A DNA stretch of 64,000 nucleotides from Kiritimatiellia bacterium (lineage in GTDB: Bacteria > Verrucomicrobiota > Kiritimatiellia > PWTM01): assembly GCA_026417735.1 (NCBI GenBank), contig JAOACR010000023.1, positions 124,001 to 188,000 of the forward strand. The letters are read 5' to 3'. This document shows positions 11,763 through 23,000 of this stretch, piece by piece; within the stretch, counting starts at the first letter, position 1; each line of letters starts with the position of its first letter. The notes beneath the pieces were generated by a model. It was not told where the DNA came from and searched no databases. It saw only the letters and a program-made list of their open reading frames with translations. Made by a program: the position numbers and the translations under genes.

Positions 11763-12052
11763 CCGAGCATCTCCTCCACGGGCAGCACGAACGCGCGGAC
11801 CCCCTCGCCGGGATAGAGCGTTGCCCGGAACGCCTCGACCGCTGCCCGTAGCTCAACCAGCTTCGGGTCCTCGACGACCGTAAAGATCATCACCGAGCGA
11901 CCGGGGAACAGCGGCGTGCCGAGCCGCCGGCCGGTGGTGCCCTCGCCGATCACACCGCGGAACTCGGAATACGCGTGGACCTCGTGGCTGGCGATGAGCC
12001 GCCGCAGGTCGTCCTCACGGCCCTCCGGACCAATCAGCACCAGCATTTTCAT
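11759..12052 (-). CDS. PII-like signalling protein (PII-NG type)
   Basis: A 97-residue ferredoxin-like protein. It starts MKMLVLIGPEGREDDLRRLI, then AYSEFRGVIGEGTTGRRLG in the T-loop position. VMIFTVVEDPKLVELRAAVEA and EGVRAFVLPVEEMLG complete the beta-alpha-beta repeats of the PII/CutA superfamily. The canonical uridylylated Tyr T-loop and the GlnB signature are absent. A divergent PII group (PII-NG) has been described next to CzcA/CusA efflux genes, and this locus has that arrangement. The ATG overlaps the RND stop (ATGA). A trimeric cytoplasmic sensor of metal or nucleotide that tunes the pump is the inferred role. Confidence 0.72.
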   Translation of the reverse strand: MKMLVLIGPEGREDDLRRLIASHEVHAYSEFRGVIGEGTTGRRLGTPLFPGRSVMIFTVVEDPKLVELRAAVEAFRATLYPGEGVRAFVLPVEEMLG

Positions 12053-15000
12053 TGGGGCACCTCCCCGCGGTTCCCGCCGACGTCTCCGCCGCGGACCAGC
12101 GCGTACGCCACCGGGATCACCACCAGCGTGAACAGCGTGGACACCAACAGCCCGAACATCAGTGCCCACGCCAGACCGCTAAAAATCGGATCAAACGTGA
12201 TCGGCCAGGCACCGAGCAGCGTGGTGCCGGCGGTCAGTGCGATCGGGCGCATGCGTACCACACCGGAATCCAGGATCGCGTCGCGCAGCGTCGCGCCGCG
12301 CGCGACCGCACCCCGAATGAAGTCAATCAGCAGCACGCCGTTCCGGATCACGATGCCGCCGAGCGCGATCATGCCGATCATCGCGGTCGCAGTGAAAAAC
12401 ACCGGGGTGTCGAAGCCGCCGACCGGCCGGGCGACGATCGCATTCAGCAGCGTGAAGCCCGGCATGATCCCGATCAGCGTCATTGGAATTGCGAGCATCA
12501 CGACCACCGGCATCGAGTAGGAGCGCGTCTCGTAGACCAGCAGCACGTAGATCGCCAGCAGCGCCGCCCCGAATGCGAGGCCGAGATCGCGGAACACGTC
12601 GAGCGTGATTTTCCATTCGCCCTCGCCGCGCCAGTTCACCTGGATGCCGCCGGGCAACGGGTTTCGTTCGAAATGGCGCTGCAGCGCGAGCACCGCGTAG
12701 GCGGGACCGCGGCCGGCGACCTCGGCGGTGACGTACACGACCCGCTCCTGGTTCTTGTGGAAGATGGCCGGCGGCGCGACCGTTTCGCGAAACCGTCCCA
12801 GCTCGCCGATTTGCACGATCTGCCCCATGCCGCCCTTCACCGGTACCGACGCCAGCCGCGCCGGATCGCTGCGCAGTTCGCGCGGCAACCGCAGCACGAT
12901 CGGCCACTCGTTCTGCTCGGCCGGCTCGTGCAGCACGCCCGCCGGCGCCCCGTGCAGCGCCATCGCGAGCGTCTGCGCGATCGCTTCGGTCGACACACCG
13001 TTCAGCGCCGCCTTGTCGCGATCCACTTCGAACACCAGCTGCGGACGGGCCGCCTCGGTGGTATCATCCACGTCCACGACGCCGGGTTCCTGTTCCATCC
13101 GCTGGCGGACAATTCGCGCGGCCGCGATCAAGTCCTCATAGCGATGCTCCGGGCCTCCGTACACCTCGGCGACGAGCGTCGCGAGCACCGGCGGACCTGG
13201 CGGCAGTTCGATCAGTTGCAACGTCGCCCCGGTCCGCCGTGCGATCTCCGCCAGCGCGGGCCGCAACCGCAGCGCAATGGAATGGCTGTCCGCGGCGCGC
13301 TTCGTGCGATGCAGCAGGTTGATGCGGACGTCCGCCAAATGCGGAGCGCGGCGCAGGTAGTAGTGGCGGACGAGGCCGTTGAAGTCCATCGGCGAGGCGT
13401 CCCCGACGATGGTCGTGAAGTCGCGCACCTCGGGGACGGTGCGCAACAGCTGTTCCACCTCGCGCACGACCGCATCGGTCGCCTCCAGCGTCGATCCCTC
13501 GGGCAGGTCCACCACCACCTGCAGCTCGTTCTTGTTGTCGAACGGCAGCATCTTCAGCGGGACGACCTCCAGCGCCAGCCAGACCGATCCGGCAAACAGC
13601 AGCGCGACGAGGCTCAGCAGCGCCCACGCGCGGCGACGCGAGTCCACAAACGGCGCAAGCAACCGGCTGTAGAACCGCCAGGTGAGCCCCGCCCGGTTGA
13701 CCGCCTCCGACCCCGGCGACGCAGTGGTGTGACCGGCGAGAAGCATCTTCGAAATCCACGGGGTCACGGTCGCCGCAACCAGCAGCGAGGCGAGCATCGT
13801 CAGCGGCACGTTCAGCGCCATCGGCCGCATGTACGGGCCCATCATGCCAGTGATGAAAAACATCGGCAGGAACGCGACGATCACCGAGAGCGTCGCGAGC
13901 GTGACCGGCGGCAGCACCTCCACAACCGCGGTCTGGATCGCGTCGTCCGGCGGCAGGCGCCGGCGCTGAAGGTGGCGGTAGATGTTGTCGACCACCACGA
14001 TGGGATTGTCCACCAGCAAACCGAGCGCGAGGATCAGCGCAAATAGCGTGACCCGGTTGATCGTGTAGCCCGCCAGCAGGTTCACCAGCAGCGTCAGCGA
14101 GTAGGTGATCGGCACGGCGAGCGCAACGATCGCGCCAACCCGCCAGTTCATTCCCAGCGCGATCAGCCCCACCACCGCAATGATCGCCTGGCCGAGCGAA
14201 CGAACCAAGTCGTTGACCTTGTCGTTCGCGGTCGCGCCATAGTCGCGCGTAATCCGGATGCCGACGTCCTCCGGAATCAGCGAGCCCCGCAGCGATTCCA
14301 GCGTGCGCTGAACGTCGCGCGAAACCCACACCGCGTTGCTACCCTTCCGCTTCGCCACCGCGATCGTCACGGCCGCGTACTCCGCGCCGACCGGGTGTGC
14401 GCCGTCGGCCGGGCCAAAGCCGATCCTCGAGTAGGAGCGGGGTTCGTCGGGTCCGTCCACCACCTCCGCAACGTCGCGCAGGTACACCGGCCGGCCCGCA
14501 TGCACGCCGACCATCAGGTTGCGGACCTCGTCCGGCGAACGCAGGAACGGGCCGACCTCCACGGGAATCTCACGGTTCGCCCGCTGCATCGAACCGGCCT
14601 GAAGATGGTGGTTGGAGACCTTCAGCGCGCCGGCGACCTCCAGCGGCGAAAGCTGATGCGCCGCGAGCCGGTCGGGGTCGAGCCGCACCTGTACCACGCG
14701 CGGCTCGCCGCCGTGCAGCGTGATCCGCGCGCTGTTGTGCACATGCTGAAGCTTCGCGGCGACCTCCTCGGCGAGACGGTACAGCTCGTGCGTGCCGTAA
14801 CGATCCGAGTAGAGCGTCGCCGCGACGATCGGCACATCGTCAATCTCAACCGGCTTCACGACCCATCCCGCAACACCAGGTGTCGTGCGGTCAATGTTCT
14901 GGAAGATCTTGTTGTAGAGCTTGATCAGGCTTTCTTCCCGGTCCTCGCCGACGTGAAAGCGGACCGTCACGACCGCCTGGCCCGGCATGGACATCGAGTA

Positions 15001-15261
15001 CACGTACTCGACTCCGTCAATCTGGTAGAGCAGACGCTCCAGCCGCGACGCGACCCGTCGCTCGATCTCTTCCGCGCTGCCCCCCGGATAGGAGATCAGC
15101 ACATCGGCGAGCGGTACGACGATCTGTGGCTCCTCCTCGCGCGGCGTCGCCATCAACGCGACGAAACCCGCCGCAAGGCTGATCACCATCAGCAGCGCCG
15201 ACAGGTGCCCCTGCAGAAAACTCCGGACCAGTCCGTCTCCCCGCTCACCATTCGCGGACAT
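12049..15261 (-). CDS. RND efflux transporter, CzcA/CusA-like inner-membrane pump
   Basis: A 1070-residue resistance-nodulation-division pump of usual length, with twelve predicted membrane helices in two halves. N-terminal cues are MVISLAAGFVALMATPREEEPQI and ADVLISYPGGSAEEIERRV, the RND entry. Helix 4 has LGLLVDNPIVVVDNIYRHL, whose acidic residues are candidates for proton relay. The second half has MIGMIALGGIVIRNGVLLIDFI. Two large periplasmic porter/docking segments separate the halves. It would drive export of metal ions or another toxic compound through the periplasm to the TolC partner using the proton gradient. The substrate cannot be read from sequence. Metal is inferred from ArsR and the PII-like neighbour. 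Confidence 0.9.
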   Translation of the reverse strand: MSANGERGDGLVRSFLQGHLSALLMVISLAAGFVALMATPREEEPQIVVPLADVLISYPGGSAEEIERRVASRLERLLYQIDGVEYVYSMSMPGQAVVTVRFHVGEDREESLIKLYNKIFQNIDRTTPGVAGWVVKPVEIDDVPIVAATLYSDRYGTHELYRLAEEVAAKLQHVHNSARITLHGGEPRVVQVRLDPDRLAAHQLSPLEVAGALKVSNHHLQAGSMQRANREIPVEVGPFLRSPDEVRNLMVGVHAGRPVYLRDVAEVVDGPDEPRSYSRIGFGPADGAHPVGAEYAAVTIAVAKRKGSNAVWVSRDVQRTLESLRGSLIPEDVGIRITRDYGATANDKVNDLVRSLGQAIIAVVGLIALGMNWRVGAIVALAVPITYSLTLLVNLLAGYTINRVTLFALILALGLLVDNPIVVVDNIYRHLQRRRLPPDDAIQTAVVEVLPPVTLATLSVIVAFLPMFFITGMMGPYMRPMALNVPLTMLASLLVAATVTPWISKMLLAGHTTASPGSEAVNRAGLTWRFYSRLLAPFVDSRRRAWALLSLVALLFAGSVWLALEVVPLKMLPFDNKNELQVVVDLPEGSTLEATDAVVREVEQLLRTVPEVRDFTTIVGDASPMDFNGLVRHYYLRRAPHLADVRINLLHRTKRAADSHSIALRLRPALAEIARRTGATLQLIELPPGPPVLATLVAEVYGGPEHRYEDLIAAARIVRQRMEQEPGVVDVDDTTEAARPQLVFEVDRDKAALNGVSTEAIAQTLAMALHGAPAGVLHEPAEQNEWPIVLRLPRELRSDPARLASVPVKGGMGQIVQIGELGRFRETVAPPAIFHKNQERVVYVTAEVAGRGPAYAVLALQRHFERNPLPGGIQVNWRGEGEWKITLDVFRDLGLAFGAALLAIYVLLVYETRSYSMPVVVMLAIPMTLIGIMPGFTLLNAIVARPVGGFDTPVFFTATAMIGMIALGGIVIRNGVLLIDFIRGAVARGATLRDAILDSGVVRMRPIALTAGTTLLGAWPITFDPIFSGLAWALMFGLLVSTLFTLVVIPVAYALVRGGDVGGNRGEVPQ

Positions 15262-15264
15262 CGC

Positions 15265-16308
15265 TCAGCCCTCCGCGCGCAGCAGCACCACCACGTCGCC
15301 ATCGTCGAGGCCCGAAAGCACCTCGATCTGGCCGTCCCGCCCCACGCCCGTTCGCACCAGCCGGCGCACCATCCGGTCACCCCGGACCACCCGGACGTAT
15401 TCCAGTTGGCCCACCCGTTCCACCGCCCCCGCCGGCACCCGGATGCGCTCCAACGGCTCGGTCGGCACGATCAGCCGCGCAAACGCGCCGGGCTTGAGCC
15501 CCTCCGACTCCGCCAGCCGCACCTTCACGCGCTGCGTGCGCGTCGCCGGATCCACCTCCGACACGATTTCCGACACCGTCCCGCGCCGACAGACCGCGGG
15601 CTGGGCGAACTCCACCTCCACCTCCTGGCCAACACTCAGCCGCTCCACCAGCCGCATCGGCACCGCCGCTTCCACCCGCATCCGGCGGGGGTCATACACC
15701 GCCAGCAGCGGCATGCCCGGCGACGCGAGGTCTCCGGGCTCCACACGCCGGTCGGTGACCACACCGTCCATCGGCGAGATGATGCGGGTGTAGGACAGCA
15801 TCACCTTCGCCCGTTCGAGCTGCGCACGGGCTGCCTCGCGCGCGGTTTCCGCAGCCAGCAGCTGTTGCTCCGTCGCCGCGTTGGAGTCGAACAGGCCCTT
15901 CGTGCGCCGATATTCCGCCTCGGCCTGGCGCAGCTGCGCCTCCGCGGCGGCGACCTGCTCGGCGATCTCCCGGTCATCAAGCCGGATCAGCTCCTGCCCT
16001 TCGCGCACCACCGCGCCCGCCCCTACCAGCACCTCCCGCACGTGCGCTGGGACTTTCGCGCTCAGCGTCGCCTTCGACTCGGATTCCACTGTCGCCGGCA
16101 CCTCCACCCAGCCGGGCGCACGCACGCGGGCGACGCGCAGCGTCACCGCTCCCGGGGGCAACGGATCGCCCAGCGGGGCCGGCGCCACACCCGGCGCCAC
16201 GTTCTGCCCACAGCCACCGGCCGACCACACCACCAGCGCGACGAGTCCCGCCGCTCCCAGCAGCGGCTTCCGAGCCGCCGCCAACTTCGAGATCCACCGT
16301 GTGTTCAT
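15265..16308 (-). CDS. RND periplasmic adaptor lipoprotein (HlyD/MFP family)
   Basis: A 347-residue membrane-fusion protein that bridges the RND pump and the outer-membrane channel. The start at 16308 follows GGGAGG and gives a lipoprotein signal with lipobox Cys at about residue 33 (VVWSAGGC). Family features in order are VEVPATVESESKATLSAKVP, a coiled-coil hairpin rich in Ala/Glu (EIAEQVAAAEAQLRQAEAEY) and the lipoyl half RIISPMDGVVTDRRVEPGDL. The beta-barrel and membrane-proximal strands run to the C-terminus. It lies 3 bp upstream of the pump gene and 38 bp downstream of the tolC-like gene. Confidence 0.9.
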   Translation of the reverse strand: MNTRWISKLAAARKPLLGAAGLVALVVWSAGGCGQNVAPGVAPAPLGDPLPPGAVTLRVARVRAPGWVEVPATVESESKATLSAKVPAHVREVLVGAGAVVREGQELIRLDDREIAEQVAAAEAQLRQAEAEYRRTKGLFDSNAATEQQLLAAETAREAARAQLERAKVMLSYTRIISPMDGVVTDRRVEPGDLASPGMPLLAVYDPRRMRVEAAVPMRLVERLSVGQEVEVEFAQPAVCRRGTVSEIVSEVDPATRTQRVKVRLAESEGLKPGAFARLIVPTEPLERIRVPAGAVERVGQLEYVRVVRGDRMVRRLVRTGVGRDGQIEVLSGLDDGDVVVLLRAEG

Positions 16309-16346
16309 CGCCAACCTCCCTTGCATGCCGCCACCGTCGATATTCC

Positions 16347-17681
16347 TCACCGCGCGCCGCCCCGTGCCGCAAACGCGGCCGCCAGCCGTCCCTGCGCCCG
16401 CTCCACGTTCGCGAGCGCGATCCGGTGGTCGTACAGCGCGGCGACGTGACGGCTGCGAATCGACGCCTGCGCCACTTCCGCGTTCAACAGCTCCGCGAGG
16501 TCCGCGGCGCCCTGCTCGTACCGCGCGCGCGCAATGCGCAGCGCTTCGTCCGCCGCGGACGCCGCCCGTGTGACCACCTTCAGCCGCTCCGCCGCCTCGC
16601 GGGCACGGATCACCGCCTGCCGCAGCTCGAAGCGCAGCTGGTCCATCGTCCGTCGCGCTTCCGCGTCCGCCGCGCGCACCTCCGCAGCGGCTTCCTCCAC
16701 CGCGCCGCGCCGACGAAAACCGTCAAACAGGTCGAGCTCCGCAACAACCCCCGCCAGGTAACTGCGTTCGAAGCCGTCGACGTCCTCCGCGTCCCAGTCG
16801 CTCGACGCGAATGCGCTGAGCGTTGGACGGAACTCCGCGCGCGCGCGTCGCGCAGCGGCGCGACGCGCGTCTGCTGCCGCGGCGACCGCACGCGCGGCGG
16901 GATGGTCCTCCAGCGGCAGGTCGTCCCGCAGTTCACCCTCGGGCTCTACCGTCACCTCGCCGCGCTCCGGAAGCCGCTCGGGCGAGGCCAGATCGCGCCC
17001 GATCGCGGTATTCAGTGCGGCGATCGCCAGGCTGACGGCGTTGCGCGCGCGCACCAAGTCCTCCCGCGCCTCGCTCAGCCGCACCTCGATCGACAGCACG
17101 TCACCACGGATCGCCGCGCCGCGGGCCTCGCGTTCCCGCGCAATCCGCAGGCTCTCCTCCAGCGACGCGACCTGCGCGGTCTGCACCCGCTCGAACTCGC
17201 GCGCCTGCAGCGCGCCGTACCAGGCGCGCGTCACCTCGTAGGCGAGCTGGTTCCGCACCGCCTCTGCGGCCGCCTCTCGCGCACGCGCCATTGCGGCGGC
17301 CGCCTCGACGCCTGCCGCGCGCCGTCCGAAGTCCAGCAGTCGCCACTTCAGCCCGATCGAGAGCCGCGTGTTGCCGGTGTCGTCCGGATCGTTCGGATCG
17401 AACGCGGGATCGCGCATATCGAGCGCACGCTGGTTGAGCGCCATCATGAACGCCTGCGGCGGATTGTCGGTGCGAGCATGCTGAGCGGACACGCCCACCA
17501 TCGGCCACCCGGCGGACCGCGCCTGTCGCAGCGCCGCCCGCGCGGCGATCACCCGCTCCTCCGCCGCCGCCGCGTCTGGATTGTGCTCCAGCGCGGCCCG
17601 GATGCACTCTTCCAGCGTCAGCGCACCAGCCGGCATCGCCGCCGCCATCGCGACTGAGATCCAACACGCCGCCACTGTCAT
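16347..17681 (-). CDS. TolC-like outer-membrane efflux protein
   Basis: A 444-residue outer-membrane factor. The signal peptide (MTVAACWISVAMAAAMPAGA) is followed by LTLEECIRAALEHNPDAAAAEE, the opening helix of OEP repeats. Two repeats of long Ala-rich helices with beta strands follow (LSIGLKWRLLDFGRRAAGVE and VVAELDLFDGFRRRGAVEEA, then RARYEQGAADLAELLNAEVA). This is the trimeric channel-tunnel layout. The start at 17681 follows GAAAGGAGGTG and overlaps the arsR stop (ATGA). In-frame sequence further upstream lies inside arsR and is not used. Confidence 0.9.
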   Translation of the reverse strand: MTVAACWISVAMAAAMPAGALTLEECIRAALEHNPDAAAAEERVIAARAALRQARSAGWPMVGVSAQHARTDNPPQAFMMALNQRALDMRDPAFDPNDPDDTGNTRLSIGLKWRLLDFGRRAAGVEAAAAMARAREAAAEAVRNQLAYEVTRAWYGALQAREFERVQTAQVASLEESLRIAREREARGAAIRGDVLSIEVRLSEAREDLVRARNAVSLAIAALNTAIGRDLASPERLPERGEVTVEPEGELRDDLPLEDHPAARAVAAAADARRAAARRARAEFRPTLSAFASSDWDAEDVDGFERSYLAGVVAELDLFDGFRRRGAVEEAAAEVRAADAEARRTMDQLRFELRQAVIRAREAAERLKVVTRAASAADEALRIARARYEQGAADLAELLNAEVAQASIRSRHVAALYDHRIALANVERAQGRLAAAFAARGGAR

Positions 17682-18016
17682 CCCGCACCTCCTTTCGCCC
17701 CGGCCGCTCCCGCGCAACAGACGCACCGCACCAGTTTCTGGATCCGCTCGTCCCCGATTCGGTACCGCACCCGCCGTCCGTCCCGCACCGCGCTCAGCGC
17801 ACCCGCGCGCCGCAGCTGGTTGAGGTGCTGCGACGTCGCCGCCGGCGACTCGCCCACCGCCCGCGCCAGTTCCCCGACCGACGCGCCCCGCCGGTCCCGC
17901 AGCAGCTCCAGCAGCTTTAGCCGAACCGGGTGCGCGATCACCCGCAGCAGGTCCGCGACTTGCTCGAGCGTCGCCGCCGGGAGTCCGCCGCACGACCATT
18001 CGCGTCTGTTGTTCAT
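17678..18016 (-). CDS. ArsR/SmtB-family metal-responsive repressor
   Basis: A 112-residue winged-helix repressor and first gene of the ten-gene operon. DLLRVIAHPVRLKLLELL is the ArsR dimer/DNA motif. GELARAVGESPAATSQHLNQL is the recognition helix, followed by the RRVRYRIGDE wing. A C-terminal CVCC-type cluster (Cys98, Cys100, Cys101) with Cys9 could ligate a soft metal or metalloid such as As(III), Cd(II) or Cu(I). It is not the canonical ELCVCDL site of ArsR or CadC. Its ATG is only 6 nt from a strong -10 element, so the transcript appears leaderless. The protein probably represses its own operon and perhaps the divergent permease. Confidence 0.92.
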   Translation of the reverse strand: MNNRREWSCGGLPAATLEQVADLLRVIAHPVRLKLLELLRDRRGASVGELARAVGESPAATSQHLNQLRRAGALSAVRDGRRVRYRIGDERIQKLVRCVCCAGAAGAKGGAG

Positions 18017-18022
18017 AGTCTC

Positions 18023-18050
18023 AATATATCATGAGTATTTGATATGTCAA
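18023..18050 (-). promoter_or_regulatory. arsR operon promoter with overlapping operator
   Basis: -35 TTGACA (18045-18050), 16-bp spacer, -10 TATATT (18023-18028). An inverted repeat fills the promoter: ATATATCA (18024-18031) and TGATATGT (18040-18047), 6-bp perfect core arms and an 8-bp spacer, like ArsR-type operators. Repressor binding would cover both -35 and -10. The start point falls at or beside the A of the arsR ATG (18016), and no Shine-Dalgarno is present. Confidence 0.75.
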
Positions 18051-18120
18051 CTGCGATCGCGCGGCGCGCCGCTTGCGCGGGCCGCAGCTGACGGCGACGA
18101 TACGGCGCCGGGACAACCGC

Positions 18121-19398
18121 ATGGACCTGTCGTGGTGGCCACCGGCGGTGTTCGCCGCCGCATATGTGCTGTTTGTGCTGCTGCCGCGCCGGCGCGCACT
18201 GTGCGCCGTGGGCGCGGCGGCGGTGCTGATGCTGGTCGGCGCGGTGCCCTGGCGGATCGCGCTGACCGAGCACGTGTCGTGGAACGTCGTGCTGTTGTTC
18301 TTCGGCACGCTGATCCTGGCGGAACTGTTCATGCAGTCGCGCATGCCCGCTGTAATCGCGGAGGCGGTGCTGCGGCGAACGCGCACCGGCACCGGTGCGA
18401 TGCTCGCGATCTGTGGGCTGGCCTCGGCGATGTCGGTGGTGCTGGAGAACGTCGCGGTAGTGTTGCTCGTCGCGCCGGTCGCGCTGACGTTGTGCCGGCG
18501 GTTGGGCGTCTCCCCGGTTCGGCTGTTGGTGCTCATCGCGCTCTGCTCGAATCTACAGGGCACCGCCACACTCATCGGTGACCCGCCCAGCATGATCCTC
18601 GCCGGCCACATGCATCTGTCGTTCAACCAGTTCTTCTTCTATCGCGGGCGACCCTCCGTGTTCTGGATCGTGCAGTCCGGCGCGGTCGCCTCGATGGTGG
18701 TCAGCGGCTGGCTGCTGCGCCGTCACCGTGAACCGGTCGAGCCGATCACGATCGAGCCGCCGCGCGCGTGGACGCCGACCGTGCTGCTGGCGGTGTTCGT
18801 GGTCGGCCTGACCACCACGCACCGGTTCGATCCGGACTTTCAGTGGCTGGCCGGCGCCTGGGCGAGCGCGCTGGCCGCGGTGGGCTTGCTCTGGTATCGC
18901 ACCGCCGCGCGCTGGGGCCGGCTGCGAGACCTGATCCGGTCGCTGGACTGGGACACGACGTTCTTCCTGATGGGCGTCTTTGTGCTGGTGGGCTCGCTGT
19001 CCTCGTCGGGCTGGTTGGACCGGCTCGCCCGCATGCTCGCCGGCTGGTCCGGCCGCAGCGTCGGCGGCGCCTTCGCCCTGGTGCTGGCGCTCAGCGTGGC
19101 GGTGTCCGGATTCGTGGACAACGTGCCCTACCTGGCGGCAATGATTCCGGTGGTCAGCACGCTCTCGACGCAGATCGGCGCGCGGGAACCCGCACTGCTG
19201 TTGTTCGCGCTGTTGATCGGCTCATGTCTGGGCGGCAATTTGACGCCGATCGGTGCCTCCGCAAACGTTGTCGCGGTCGGACTGCTGCGCCGCGAGGGCC
19301 ACCTGGTGCGGTTTGGCGAGTTTCTCCGCATCGGCGCGCCCTTCACGCTCGCCGCGGTGGGCGCCGGCGCCGCGGTGCTCTGGTGGCTCTGGCGATGA
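18121..19398 (+). CDS. ArsB/NhaD-superfamily permease (SLC13-like)
   Basis: A 425-residue inner-membrane transporter with about eleven hydrophobic helices. It starts at ATG 18121 (MDLSWWPPAVFAAAY). Superfamily marks are VLENVAVVLLVAPVALTL, the GDPPSMILAG loop and a repeated SGFVDNVPYLAAMIPVV with LGGNLTPIGASANVV. The two inverted Asn/Pro repeats are typical of Na+ or H+-coupled anion/arsenite exporters. It is divergent from arsR, 104 bp away, so the operator at 18023-18050 could also influence it. Arsenite export is possible, but organic anion or Na+/H+ exchange is not excluded. Its stop overlaps the SGNH hydrolase gene (ATGA). Confidence 0.85.
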   Translation: MDLSWWPPAVFAAAYVLFVLLPRRRALCAVGAAAVLMLVGAVPWRIALTEHVSWNVVLLFFGTLILAELFMQSRMPAVIAEAVLRRTRTGTGAMLAICGLASAMSVVLENVAVVLLVAPVALTLCRRLGVSPVRLLVLIALCSNLQGTATLIGDPPSMILAGHMHLSFNQFFFYRGRPSVFWIVQSGAVASMVVSGWLLRRHREPVEPITIEPPRAWTPTVLLAVFVVGLTTTHRFDPDFQWLAGAWASALAAVGLLWYRTAARWGRLRDLIRSLDWDTTFFLMGVFVLVGSLSSSGWLDRLARMLAGWSGRSVGGAFALVLALSVAVSGFVDNVPYLAAMIPVVSTLSTQIGAREPALLLFALLIGSCLGGNLTPIGASANVVAVGLLRREGHLVRFGEFLRIGAPFTLAAVGAGAAVLWWLWR

Positions 19399-20024
19399 GC
19401 GGTCGCCGGCGCTGGGTCGTGTACGGCTCGAGCATCTCCACCGAGCGCGTGCGCTGGGCGCCGTGGCGCGCATGCGGCGGTGCGTGGGTTGCGGTACTGC
19501 GTTCCACCCGGCCCGACATCGAAGTGCTGAACCGCTCCGGCTGGGGATGGACGTCCCGCGACGCGGTACGCGCGTTCGGACCCCGCGTGCTGGCCCTGCA
19601 GCCGGATGGCGTGCTGATCGAGTTCGCGATCAACGACGCAGACGAGCGACGCCGCTGCACGCTCGAGGAGTCCTCCGATCATCTGACGACGCTGCTACGC
19701 GCGCTCGCCGGCACCAATCCGGCCTCCCGCGCCGTCGTGATGATCCCGCCCCCACCGTCCGGCCGGTACGCCCCAACGCGACCGCGCTTCTCCGACTACG
19801 CCGCCGTCTGGCGCCGCACCGCAGCCGACCACCACGCGGCGCTGGCGGACCTGGCCGCCGGCTGGGAGGCGTTCGTCGCCGCGCATCCCGGTGGTGAATC
19901 TGCTTGCCGTCCCGACGGTCTGCACCCCGCCTCGGCCGCCGCCGACTGGATCGCGTCGGTCGTGTCCAGCGCGATCGACTCCGCTCCCCCCCTCCTCCGG
20001 TCTGACCCGTCCCCTTCGTGCTAG
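19395..20024 (+). CDS. SGNH/GDSL-type hydrolase
   Basis: A 209-residue esterase-like protein. Block I is WVVYGSSISTE (nucleophile Ser in a GSS variant of GDS), block III is LIEFAINDADE (the G-x-N-D Asn), and block V is PDGLHPAS with the Asp-His pair. The middle GWGWTSRDAVRAF resembles block II. No export signal is visible, so it may be cytoplasmic. It is translationally coupled to the upstream permease by ATGA, but a functional link is unclear. The substrate, probably an ester of a sugar or lipid, cannot be given. Confidence 0.8.
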   Translation: MSGRRRWVVYGSSISTERVRWAPWRACGGAWVAVLRSTRPDIEVLNRSGWGWTSRDAVRAFGPRVLALQPDGVLIEFAINDADERRRCTLEESSDHLTTLLRALAGTNPASRAVVMIPPPPSGRYAPTRPRFSDYAAVWRRTAADHHAALADLAAGWEAFVAAHPGGESACRPDGLHPASAAADWIASVVSSAIDSAPPLLRSDPSPSC

Positions 20025-20089
20025 CGTCGTACACGCCGACACACTGCCGAAGGTTTGCAACCGCGCCACATCACCGTCACGATGCGGGC

Positions 20090-23000
20090 ATGAATACGGG
20101 ACTGCTTCTGCTCGCGATCTTGGCACCTTGGCATACGGACCTCTCGGCCGGGCTCGACGGCATCTGGCGCCGCCGACTCGCCGTGGAGCTCACCAACGCG
20201 TCGCCGACCGCCGCCGTGGCGGAAACCGTCGAACTGGACCTTGCGCCGTTGGCTGGCGCGCGCGTCGCGGAGCTGCGCGTCGCGATCGAGCCGGACACTG
20301 AACTGCTGTACGACATCGTCACCACCACGGGGCGGTCCCGCCGTGAGGGCACCGTGCTGGTCGGCGACCGGCTGTGCGTCCCGGTTCATCTCGGGGCTGG
20401 CGGCGTCGTGCGCCTCTATGTCTACGCCGACAACCCGCGCGCGGCGCCGGTGCCGGAGTTCTGGAGGGCGGGCCTGCGGAACGGCGCATTCGAATTCGCG
20501 GAGCGCGGTCGCCCGCACGACTGGCAGCCCGCCACCACCAGTCCCGCCCATCGAACCGCCTGGAGCCCCACGGCGGGCCGCGGCGGCACGGCGGGGGTAA
20601 CGGTCTCCGTGGCCAGCGGCGCACCGCCCGCGTGGGTGCAGTGGCGCCAGCACATCCCGGCGCTGGCGGGTGGCCGCCGGTACGAGCTCTCCGGTTGGGT
20701 CCGCTCACACGAACTCCGCGGCCGCGCCGGCTGGTTCGTGCACGTGCACACCAACGGGGGCCCTCCGATCATCCGCCATGCCGATCTCGACAGTCGTACC
20801 TGCGACTGGACCCGCGTCGCCGTGGCGTTCGATGTGCCGACGGGCGCCACCAGCGCCACGGTCGGCACACTGCTGTACGGCGACGGCGAGGCGGCGTACG
20901 ACGACGTCACGCTCCTACCAATCTCCGGCGGCCCCGCACTCAAGGTGGTCTCCGCGCGCGTCGAGGTGCTGCCCCCGACCCCGTCGCCGCCGCCGTTCGA
21001 ACCGCGCTTCGTGCCGGGCGACGTTGTCGCCGCGCGCGTGGAGCTCGCCAGCCCCGTCACCACGGCGGCGCCCGGCGCGGTGCTCGTTGATCTTCGCCCT
21101 CTCGGCGGCCGCTGGTATGGCGGCCGGCCCGCCGGCGGACTGCGCGCAACACGGCCTGACGGCACACCGGTTGGCGCCGTGCGGCTAGGCGAGCTCGCGC
21201 TGCTCGAGCGAGCGCCCGACGCACCCGCCGCTTGGGACGTGTTCCTTTGCGACCTCGCAGCCGCTCCCCTCGAGCTCTCAGCGTTTCCGACCACAGACAA
21301 CCTCGCGCCCCCCTTGTGTTCCGCGGACGGTCGCTCGCCGGGACGCAGCTGGCGATTCCAGGGCCGCGCCGACCTCGCTCGCGCTGGCGCCCATATGGTG
21401 GACGGCGTCCCAACATTGGAATTCGATTCGACCGCCGCCTCCAACGCTTGGACGGGATGGACCTCCGAGCCGATTCCGGTGGAACCTGGGGCCAGCTACG
21501 TGCTGGCCGGCCTCCTGAAGGCGGAGGGCGGCGCCGCCGGCGCAGCCGTTCACGCCCATTTGCGCACGGCGGACGGTGCGCTGGTGCCGGGAGAGTGGGC
21601 GATCAGCACTGCGCCCGGCGCAACCCACCACGGCTGGACGCTCAGCAGCACAGTCTTTCGTGCACCGCCCGAGGCCGCGACCATCTCGCTGCATCTGACG
21701 GTGAACCGACCCGGCGTGCTACGGCATCGCGCAGTGTATCTGGCGCGCGTGGAACGCGGCCGCATCGCCGCGCTGGCGGCGCCCGGCGCGGCAGCCGGCC
21801 CGTCGCCCCGCCTCTGGAACGCAGATCCGCTGGTGAAGATCTTCCGCGATGACCCGCCGCCCGCCGCGGCGGCCGCACCGATTCGGCTGAGGGCCGCCCG
21901 CGGCGAGGCCGAGGTTGCCCAGCTGGCCGTGTACGCCGGTGACGCGCCGCGCGAGGTCGTGCTCGAGCCGACGCCGCTGCGAGGTCCGGGTGGCTCAACC
22001 CTCACCGCAGAAGTGGCGGCGGTCGGCTACGTGCCGGTGGACCACCCGAGTGGATACTTTCGCGATGACGGCCCGCCGGGCCATCGCCGCCGGCCACGCC
22101 GCGGCGGAAGCACGGACGGCTGGGCCGCAGAATGGCCGGACCCGCTGGTGCCAACCAACCGCGCAAGGGTGGAGGCCCGCTGCAACCAGCCGTTCTGGAT
22201 CACGATCCGCGTTCCCGACAGCGCTCCAAGCGCTCTCCATGAGGGGAGCGTGCAAGTGCGCATTGACGGGCGCATGTTCGCTGAAGTGCCGCTCTCGGTG
22301 GAGGTGCTGCCCCTCACCCTGCCGCGCCGACCGTCGCTGCAGATTCTGCTCGACCTGCGGACGGGACCCGGCGGTGACTTTGGCAGCGGCATTGCAGAGG
22401 TCGGCGGCGGGCGCCGACGGGCTTGGCTGAAGCTGCTGGCCGAACATCGCGTGGGCATTGACCGTATCCTGCCCGAGCCGGAGTTCCGCCGGCTCAATGG
22501 CCAGGTGGAGATGGACTCCGCCGCCTATGAGGCCGAGGCGGCGTACTGCTTCAACGAACTGGGCATGGCCGCCGCCTATGCCCCCCATTTCTTCTACCTG
22601 TTCGGGTGGGCCTACCGGCCGTCGTCCCGCTTCGGCTTGGAGGCGATGTCGACGGAATGGAAGTCGGCCATGCAGCAGGCCGCCCGCCTGTTTGCAGACC
22701 GAATGCGTGCACGGGGGTGGCATGACCGGTACCTGCTCTACATCGCTGACGAGCCCCACGTTCACCACCAGTTCGTCGTGGAACAGATGCGGGAGCTCTG
22801 CCGAATGTACCACGAGTCGGGCGCCCGGCTGCCCATCTATTCGAGCACATGGCGTCACTGTGCCGCGTGGGACGACGCGCTCGACGTGTGGGGTGTGGGC
22901 CAGTATGGCTGTTTCCCGGTCGAGACAATGGAGCGGTTGCGCGCGGCCGGTCGGGGCATCCTGTTCACCTGCGACGGACAAATGGCGATCGACACGCCAT

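Follow-up and report, generated by a model that had tools for sequence, protein, structure and literature searches.

The 64,000-nt window analyzed here (the whole stretch of DNA taken from one contig of a Kiritimatiellia genome) contains, on the minus strand, a gene cluster in which a small ArsR/SmtB-type regulator is followed by the three components of a TolC-adaptor-RND efflux system (Table 1). The regulator scores above the cut-off of both Pfam HTH_5 and HTH_20 and reaches 74.3 bits with NCBIfam NF033788 (cut-off 55), and its sequence relatives in the PDB include YgaV, the best match, SmtB and BigR. The RND pump stays under the cut-off of all 14 NCBIfam models listed for it. A CitMHS/ArsB-like permease is encoded divergently (18121-19398, plus strand), about 70 bp from the candidate operator. 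Joint control of this permease was considered and rejected: tblastn detects it in the window stretch alone among the 101 arsR stretches, and the promoter scan detects no plus-strand promoter for it.

Table 1. Features of the arsR-efflux locus (window coordinates)
Feature	Position	Strand	Evidence
RND inner-membrane pump (AcrB-like superfamily)	12049..15261	-	Pfam ACR_tran, 549 bits
RND periplasmic adaptor (HlyD/CusB-like)	15265..16350 (start approximate)	-	Pfam HlyD_D23; TIGR01730 above cut-off
TolC-type outer-membrane efflux protein	16347..17681	-	Pfam OEP, 200 bits; ATG overlaps arsR stop (ATGA)
SD of second gene, AAAGGAGGT, within arsR 3' end, 5 nt from next ATG	17687..17695	-	
arsR, 112-aa ArsR/SmtB-type winged-helix regulator, ATG at 18016	17678..18016	-	Pfam, NCBIfam, PDB relatives
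Discriminator GAGACT, 6 nt; predicted +1 = A of ATG at 18016	18017..18022	-	Spacing; pyrimidine at -1 in relatives
-10 hexamer TATATT, TG extension 18030-18031	18023..18028	-	Promoter scan; TANNNT in 78/79 leaderless-type loci
Candidate ArsR operator, imperfect inverted repeat, arms 18024-18031 and 18040-18047	18024..18047		Repeat in window; family palindrome at same place
-35 hexamer TTGACA	18045..18050	-	Promoter scan; exact TTGACA in 71/79 leaderless-type loci

The promoter of this cluster abuts the first gene. The original prediction, a TTGACA-16-TATATT promoter ending 6 nt from the arsR ATG, is borne out by the minus-strand letters, where TTGACA is followed after 16 nt by TATATT, the discriminator GAGACT and the ATG (18016-18014), with the TG extension located one base upstream of the -10 hexamer. 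This is the sole sigma70-like site found by the scan between 14000 and 22000 (0.2 expected from shuffles), and the pattern TTGACA-N15-18-TANNNT-N5-9-ATG occurs at only 4 places in the 3.09-Mb genome, with none in the reversed control. Only four codons (12 nt) separate the ATG from an in-frame TGA directly upstream of the -10 hexamer, which makes an earlier ATG, GTG or TTG start of arsR impossible. No Shine-Dalgarno (SD) match is detectable upstream of the arsR start in the window. In a published survey, leaderless genes were recognized by a -10-like signal some 10 bp upstream of the start codon (PMC3160421), and the 6 nt that separate the -10 hexamer from the ATG in the window fall within the range of about 6-9 nt typical of such genes.

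This arrangement is widely conserved among the relatives of the gene. A profile (A1) was built from 19 loci picked by protein similarity, the window gene included (L001, L003-L005, L007-L021; left out were the paralogue L002, L006, which is the same gene as L138, and L022-L031), and by eye all of these, except for L017, which was kept although promoterless, have a promoter just before the start, most with a block near TTGACATATCATGATATCATGATATnTTG. The class-wide profile search yielded 101 loci in 96 of the 345 Kiritimatiellia genomes, with named relatives indicating Kiritimatiellia, the cultured Pontiella sulfatireligans among them; 99 loci were readable after two (L130, L155) were dropped at contig ends. 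In 79 of the 99, a promoter (score of at least 9) ends 6-9 nt before an in-frame start codon (gap of 6 nt in 40 loci, 7 in 32, 8 in five and 9 in two); the start is ATG in 73 and GTG in six, and the spacer is 16 nt long in 74. Seven loci of the class have an earlier in-frame start codon as well, 0-1 nt downstream of the -10 hexamer; in these, the one at 6-7 nt was used. The pattern spans 41 of the 52 genera and 25 of the 30 families represented among the 99 loci, with the proviso that the profile and its threshold favor close homologs and that related rows are not independent. Few discriminators recur (74 distinct among the 79, with a mean pairwise identity of 0.36 for those of 6 nt), so that the distance is conserved and the sequence is not. 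One of the 79, L138 (G008:C181), combines the conserved promoter with a TGA in frame at codon 15, which may reflect a pseudogene, a sequencing error or a different start; this locus was counted for the promoter, and its short length kept it out of the tree and the cysteine alignment.

A chance promoter is ruled out by comparison with other genes. In a common test (score of at least 9.5, start 5-9 nt after the -10 hexamer), 78 of the 99 arsR loci are positive, vs 2 of 372 neighboring ORFs and none of 213 ORFs drawn from the genome of the window, all control ORFs being of 200 aa or more; at a score of at least 9, the same test gives 80/99, 5/372 and 2/213, respectively. With the distance shifted to 35-39 nt, a score of 9.5 is reached in 17/99, 0/372 and 1/213 cases, the first value being raised because several candidate starts were allowed per arsR.

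At bacterial transcription start sites, position +1 is preferentially a purine and position -1 a pyrimidine. Immediately upstream of the arsR start codon, 73 of the 79 loci have a pyrimidine (C in 72%), as do 38 of 41 after reduction to one locus per genus; for second genes that start at ATGA overlaps, the figure is 13 of 33 (Fisher p 8e-9 against the 73/79, relatedness ignored). This bias before the start codon, the strongest sequence evidence on this point, points to the A of the AUG as the +1 position of the arsR mRNA. Transcription from 1-5 nt upstream of the ATG, with a very short leader and initiation still independent of SD, would accommodate the gaps of 7-9 nt in 39 of the 79 loci and the 11-nt gap of the same-genus locus L146; the pyrimidine, however, is found at 38 of the 40 loci whose gap is 6 nt and at 29 of the 32 whose gap is 7 nt, as predicted by a start at the A of AUG whatever the gap, which makes this alternative rather unlikely. 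The claim of a leaderless arsR transcript is thus strongly supported by comparison, through the spacing, the initiator signature and the lack of an SD, and a start at the A of the AUG is the predicted one.

The second part of the original prediction, an 8-bp-armed inverted repeat with one mismatch overlapping both hexamers, can be read directly from the window: perfect 6-bp arms, ATATCA-N8-TGATAT at 18026-18045, extend to 8-bp arms with one mismatch, and the repeat covers five bases of the -10 and three of the -35 hexamer. Shuffling the local 42 nt 2000 times, with free placement of the repeat, produces an equally good 8-bp repeat in 299 cases, so that the window repeat alone is not significant. 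The family adds to this picture. With the center fixed relative to the -35 hexamer, the palindrome across the 79 loci has a mean of 5.4 of 8 outer pairs, vs 2.7 in shuffles, and 40 of the 79 loci reach at least 6 pairs, vs 1.7% of the shuffles of the 79 sites; the window itself pairs at 6 of the 8 positions. A chance palindrome, which is possible from the window alone with free placement, is accordingly disfavored by family conservation. No second copy of ATATCA-N8-TGATAT, with up to one mismatch allowed, was found in the 3.09-Mb genome, and a regulon sharing this operator within the genome was rejected for this reason.

Regulators of the ArsR/SmtB type bind as dimers to an inverted repeat at their own promoter. 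The window has an inverted repeat over the promoter of a repressor-first operon, as in leaderless autorepressor operons of the NreA and AcuR type, and autorepression by ArsR through the overlapping palindrome is a natural inference. It could be argued that ArsR does not repress itself and that the palindrome serves another regulator or none, because ArsR binding is a prediction and such repeats arise by chance in an AT-rich segment; against this, the palindrome occurs with the arsR family across genera while the downstream genes differ, and the element is single-copy in the genome, so that this option is quite improbable. Least probable is that the -35/-10 match is incidental, the block being an ArsR operator alone and the real promoter lying further upstream with a normal leader: operator conservation could indeed preserve the parts of both hexamers that the palindrome includes, but the hexamers and their spacing persist in the six of the 79 loci with a weak palindrome (3 or fewer of 8 pairs; L102, L106, L123, L172, L186 and L187), the scan from 14000 to 22000 detects no other promoter-like site, and it would be hard to see why the spacing to the start codon is so constant.

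The second gene of the operon is apparently translated in a different manner. A second gene follows within 120 nt in 67 of the 79 loci (none in eight; the contig ends in four), and an SD of at least 5 bases precedes arsR in 0 and the second gene in 51 of these 67, the latter count being inflated by the use of the best of several candidate starts. Thus, with an SD-less arsR and an SD-led second gene, the repressor and the pump probably share one transcript but not one route of translation. It had been proposed that leaderless autorepression would make translation of arsR insensitive to SD control; this would apply to the arsR start alone, which lacks an SD, and does not carry over to the pump genes, which look SD-led and, given the strong SD of the second gene and its overlap with the arsR stop, stay under SD control. 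A better wording of the consequence would be that a single repressed promoter gives rise to separate translation of the repressor and the pump.

The lack of an SD at arsR has to be read against the genomic background, in which there is little SD enrichment. In a crude count, SD-like motifs precede 38 of 190 ORFs, vs 31 and 34 of 190 at shifted positions, and among single-ATG ORFs the respective numbers are 9 and 5 of 72; an arsR without an SD may thus be nothing unusual in this genome, whereas the placement of its promoter is. A search for the 16S 3' end with the exact string GGATCACCTCCTTT gave no match. In a published SD survey, Kiritimatiellae are included in a table of anti-SD types with a value of 63 (the column heading lies outside the available excerpt), an entry that might argue against a shortage of SD sequences in the class (PMC10783764). 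For TANNNT before the ATG in 140 ORFs of the genome, 12 cases are at 6-9 nt, a range picked after the counts were seen, and 14 at 4-10 nt, vs 0.6-0.8 per position further away, and this excess may indicate that a minority of the genes are leaderless. A TetR/CecR-type regulator gene of the same genome (L033/L222; G000:C17:60128-60166, minus strand) has TTGACA-17-TATGTT 7 nt before its ATG with, by eye, AAACAnATGTTT-like repeats inside the promoter; the gaps in two same-genus relatives are 12 nt (L223) and 9 nt (L224), and the other five relatives recovered lack the pattern.

The 20 loci of the class outside the pattern consist of five with leaders, L132 (17 nt to a TTG), L146 and 13 without such a promoter at that place. 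The five leadered loci, L170, L176, L177, L180 and L181, have kept the promoter with a leader of 27-54 nt, SD matches of 4, 0, 5, 4 and 6 bases and palindromes of 5, 7, 7, 4 and 4 of 8 pairs, respectively. Beyond the class, 18 loci come from other classes of the same phylum; among these, L204 and L214 are leaderless-like, as is L215 with a weaker promoter, L217 is possibly of this type (a promoter-like site with a score of 9.5, 9 nt before a start), L210 combines the promoter and a palindrome-like block with an SD leader, and the remaining ones have no such promoter. A contig labeled as planctomycete carries a leaderless-like locus (L051), and in WGMA01000027.1, a contig labeled Phycisphaera, a promoter and palindrome of the same kind precede a related arsR with an AGGAGG leader (L045). 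On a poorly resolved tree (118 proteins, 110 columns, 52 of 115 inner branches open), parsimony gives five changes of leader state and nine changes of downstream gene type. The leader states were labeled by hand, with other-class loci without a recognized promoter, L217 included, set to 'internal' by default; the 'oth' rows were left out of the counts, and the downstream types are coarse ORF clusters in which RND takes precedence.

Leaderless autorepressors and leaderless arsR mRNA are both already published, and what stands out here is the wide conservation. In the Mesorhizobium nreAXY operon, a leaderless transcript is supported by 5' RACE and a dyad operator lies in the -35/-10 spacer; the likeness extends to the place of the repressor as the first gene of an efflux operon and to uniformity among the nre-containing strains, but NreA is a nickel regulator of the CsoR/RcnR family, and the arrangement is reported as conserved in Mesorhizobium strains, as against 25 family groups here (PMC12724321). 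The acuR-acuI-dddL operon of Rhodobacter sphaeroides likewise begins with the repressor gene, has a leaderless mRNA and an 8-bp inverted-repeat operator over the promoter, and its repressor is translated less than the downstream genes; the differences are that AcuR belongs to the TetR family, responds to acrylate and controls a catabolic operon (PMC3017554). Start-site mapping in Cupriavidus metallidurans CH34 placed arsR among regulators with leaderless mRNAs (5' UTR <5 nt), and here the likeness rests on the leaderless arsR mRNA, the organism being a proteobacterium and the gene part of an arsenic cluster (PMC7563307). The repressor mRNAs of lambda cI and Tn1721 tetR are also leaderless, as cited in PMC3017554, with proteins and operators unrelated to those of ArsR, and the available excerpt of PMC3032703 contains no mention of a leaderless arsR. 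The leaderless repressor genes encountered here in print belong to single operons or gene lists; by comparison, the present case is one regulator with a promoter fused to the start codon and a palindrome, across 25 family groups, with differing downstream genes and some leadered members. It can serve as a comparative system for the question of why autorepressors are leaderless, with the cultured Pontiella sulfatireligans F21 (L052) within it.

Taken together, these comparisons make it likely that an autorepressing, leaderlessly translated ArsR controls its own TolC-adaptor-RND operon. Under this scheme, a single sigma70-type promoter would drive arsR-tolC-adaptor-RND, with the polymerase taking the A of the arsR ATG as its first base and the mRNA thus starting with 5'-AUG; arsR would be translated without a leader or SD, and the next pump gene from its own SD at the ATGA overlap. 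An ArsR dimer bound to the inverted repeat, which takes up the -35/-10 spacer and reaches into both hexamers, would exclude the polymerase until an inducer releases ArsR from the repeat. The layout of the sequence and its conservation, the signature of the start site, the lack of an SD at the first gene and, at many loci, its presence at the second are directly observed; from these we infer the actual +1 position, the binding of the dimer, autorepression and the existence of an inducer. A more speculative and doubtful extension is that leaderlessness itself is selected, the promoter-operator being kept throughout Kiritimatiellia at a fixed distance from the arsR start codon so that, on one mRNA, the repressor and the pump use 5'-AUG and SD initiation, respectively, with their ratio shifting under stress; if so, the leadered lineages with the same promoter and palindrome would be natural controls.

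The cysteines of ArsR bear on the signal to which it might respond. Classical arsenic-responsive ArsR proteins have a cysteine motif in the alpha3 DNA-binding region, and the persulfide sensors BigR and SqrR have two conserved cysteines. The ArsR of the window contains no cysteine in residues 10-97, and Cys98, present in 96 of 97 aligned proteins, is the sole near-invariant one, the remaining cysteines being variable. Similarly, for all the likeness to YgaV and BigR among the PDB sequence matches, the protein scores 46.7 bits with the BigR model, far under the cut-off of 155. An assignment of arsenic or persulfide as the inducer was dropped because the cysteine pattern matches neither known type; a thiol-reactive signal is plausible, possibly sensed through Cys98. 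The downstream partners across the loci include RND pumps, MMPL-type transporters or a multidomain protein in which a pyridine-nucleotide-disulfide oxidoreductase is joined to rhodanese, TusA and DsrE-like domains. In a set of related loci (L182, L185, L205, L207-L209, L211-L213, L217 and L221), arsR directly follows a gene the product of which, on visual inspection of the sequence upstream, has a DsrE-type end; this hints that the arsR branch concerned is linked to sulfur.
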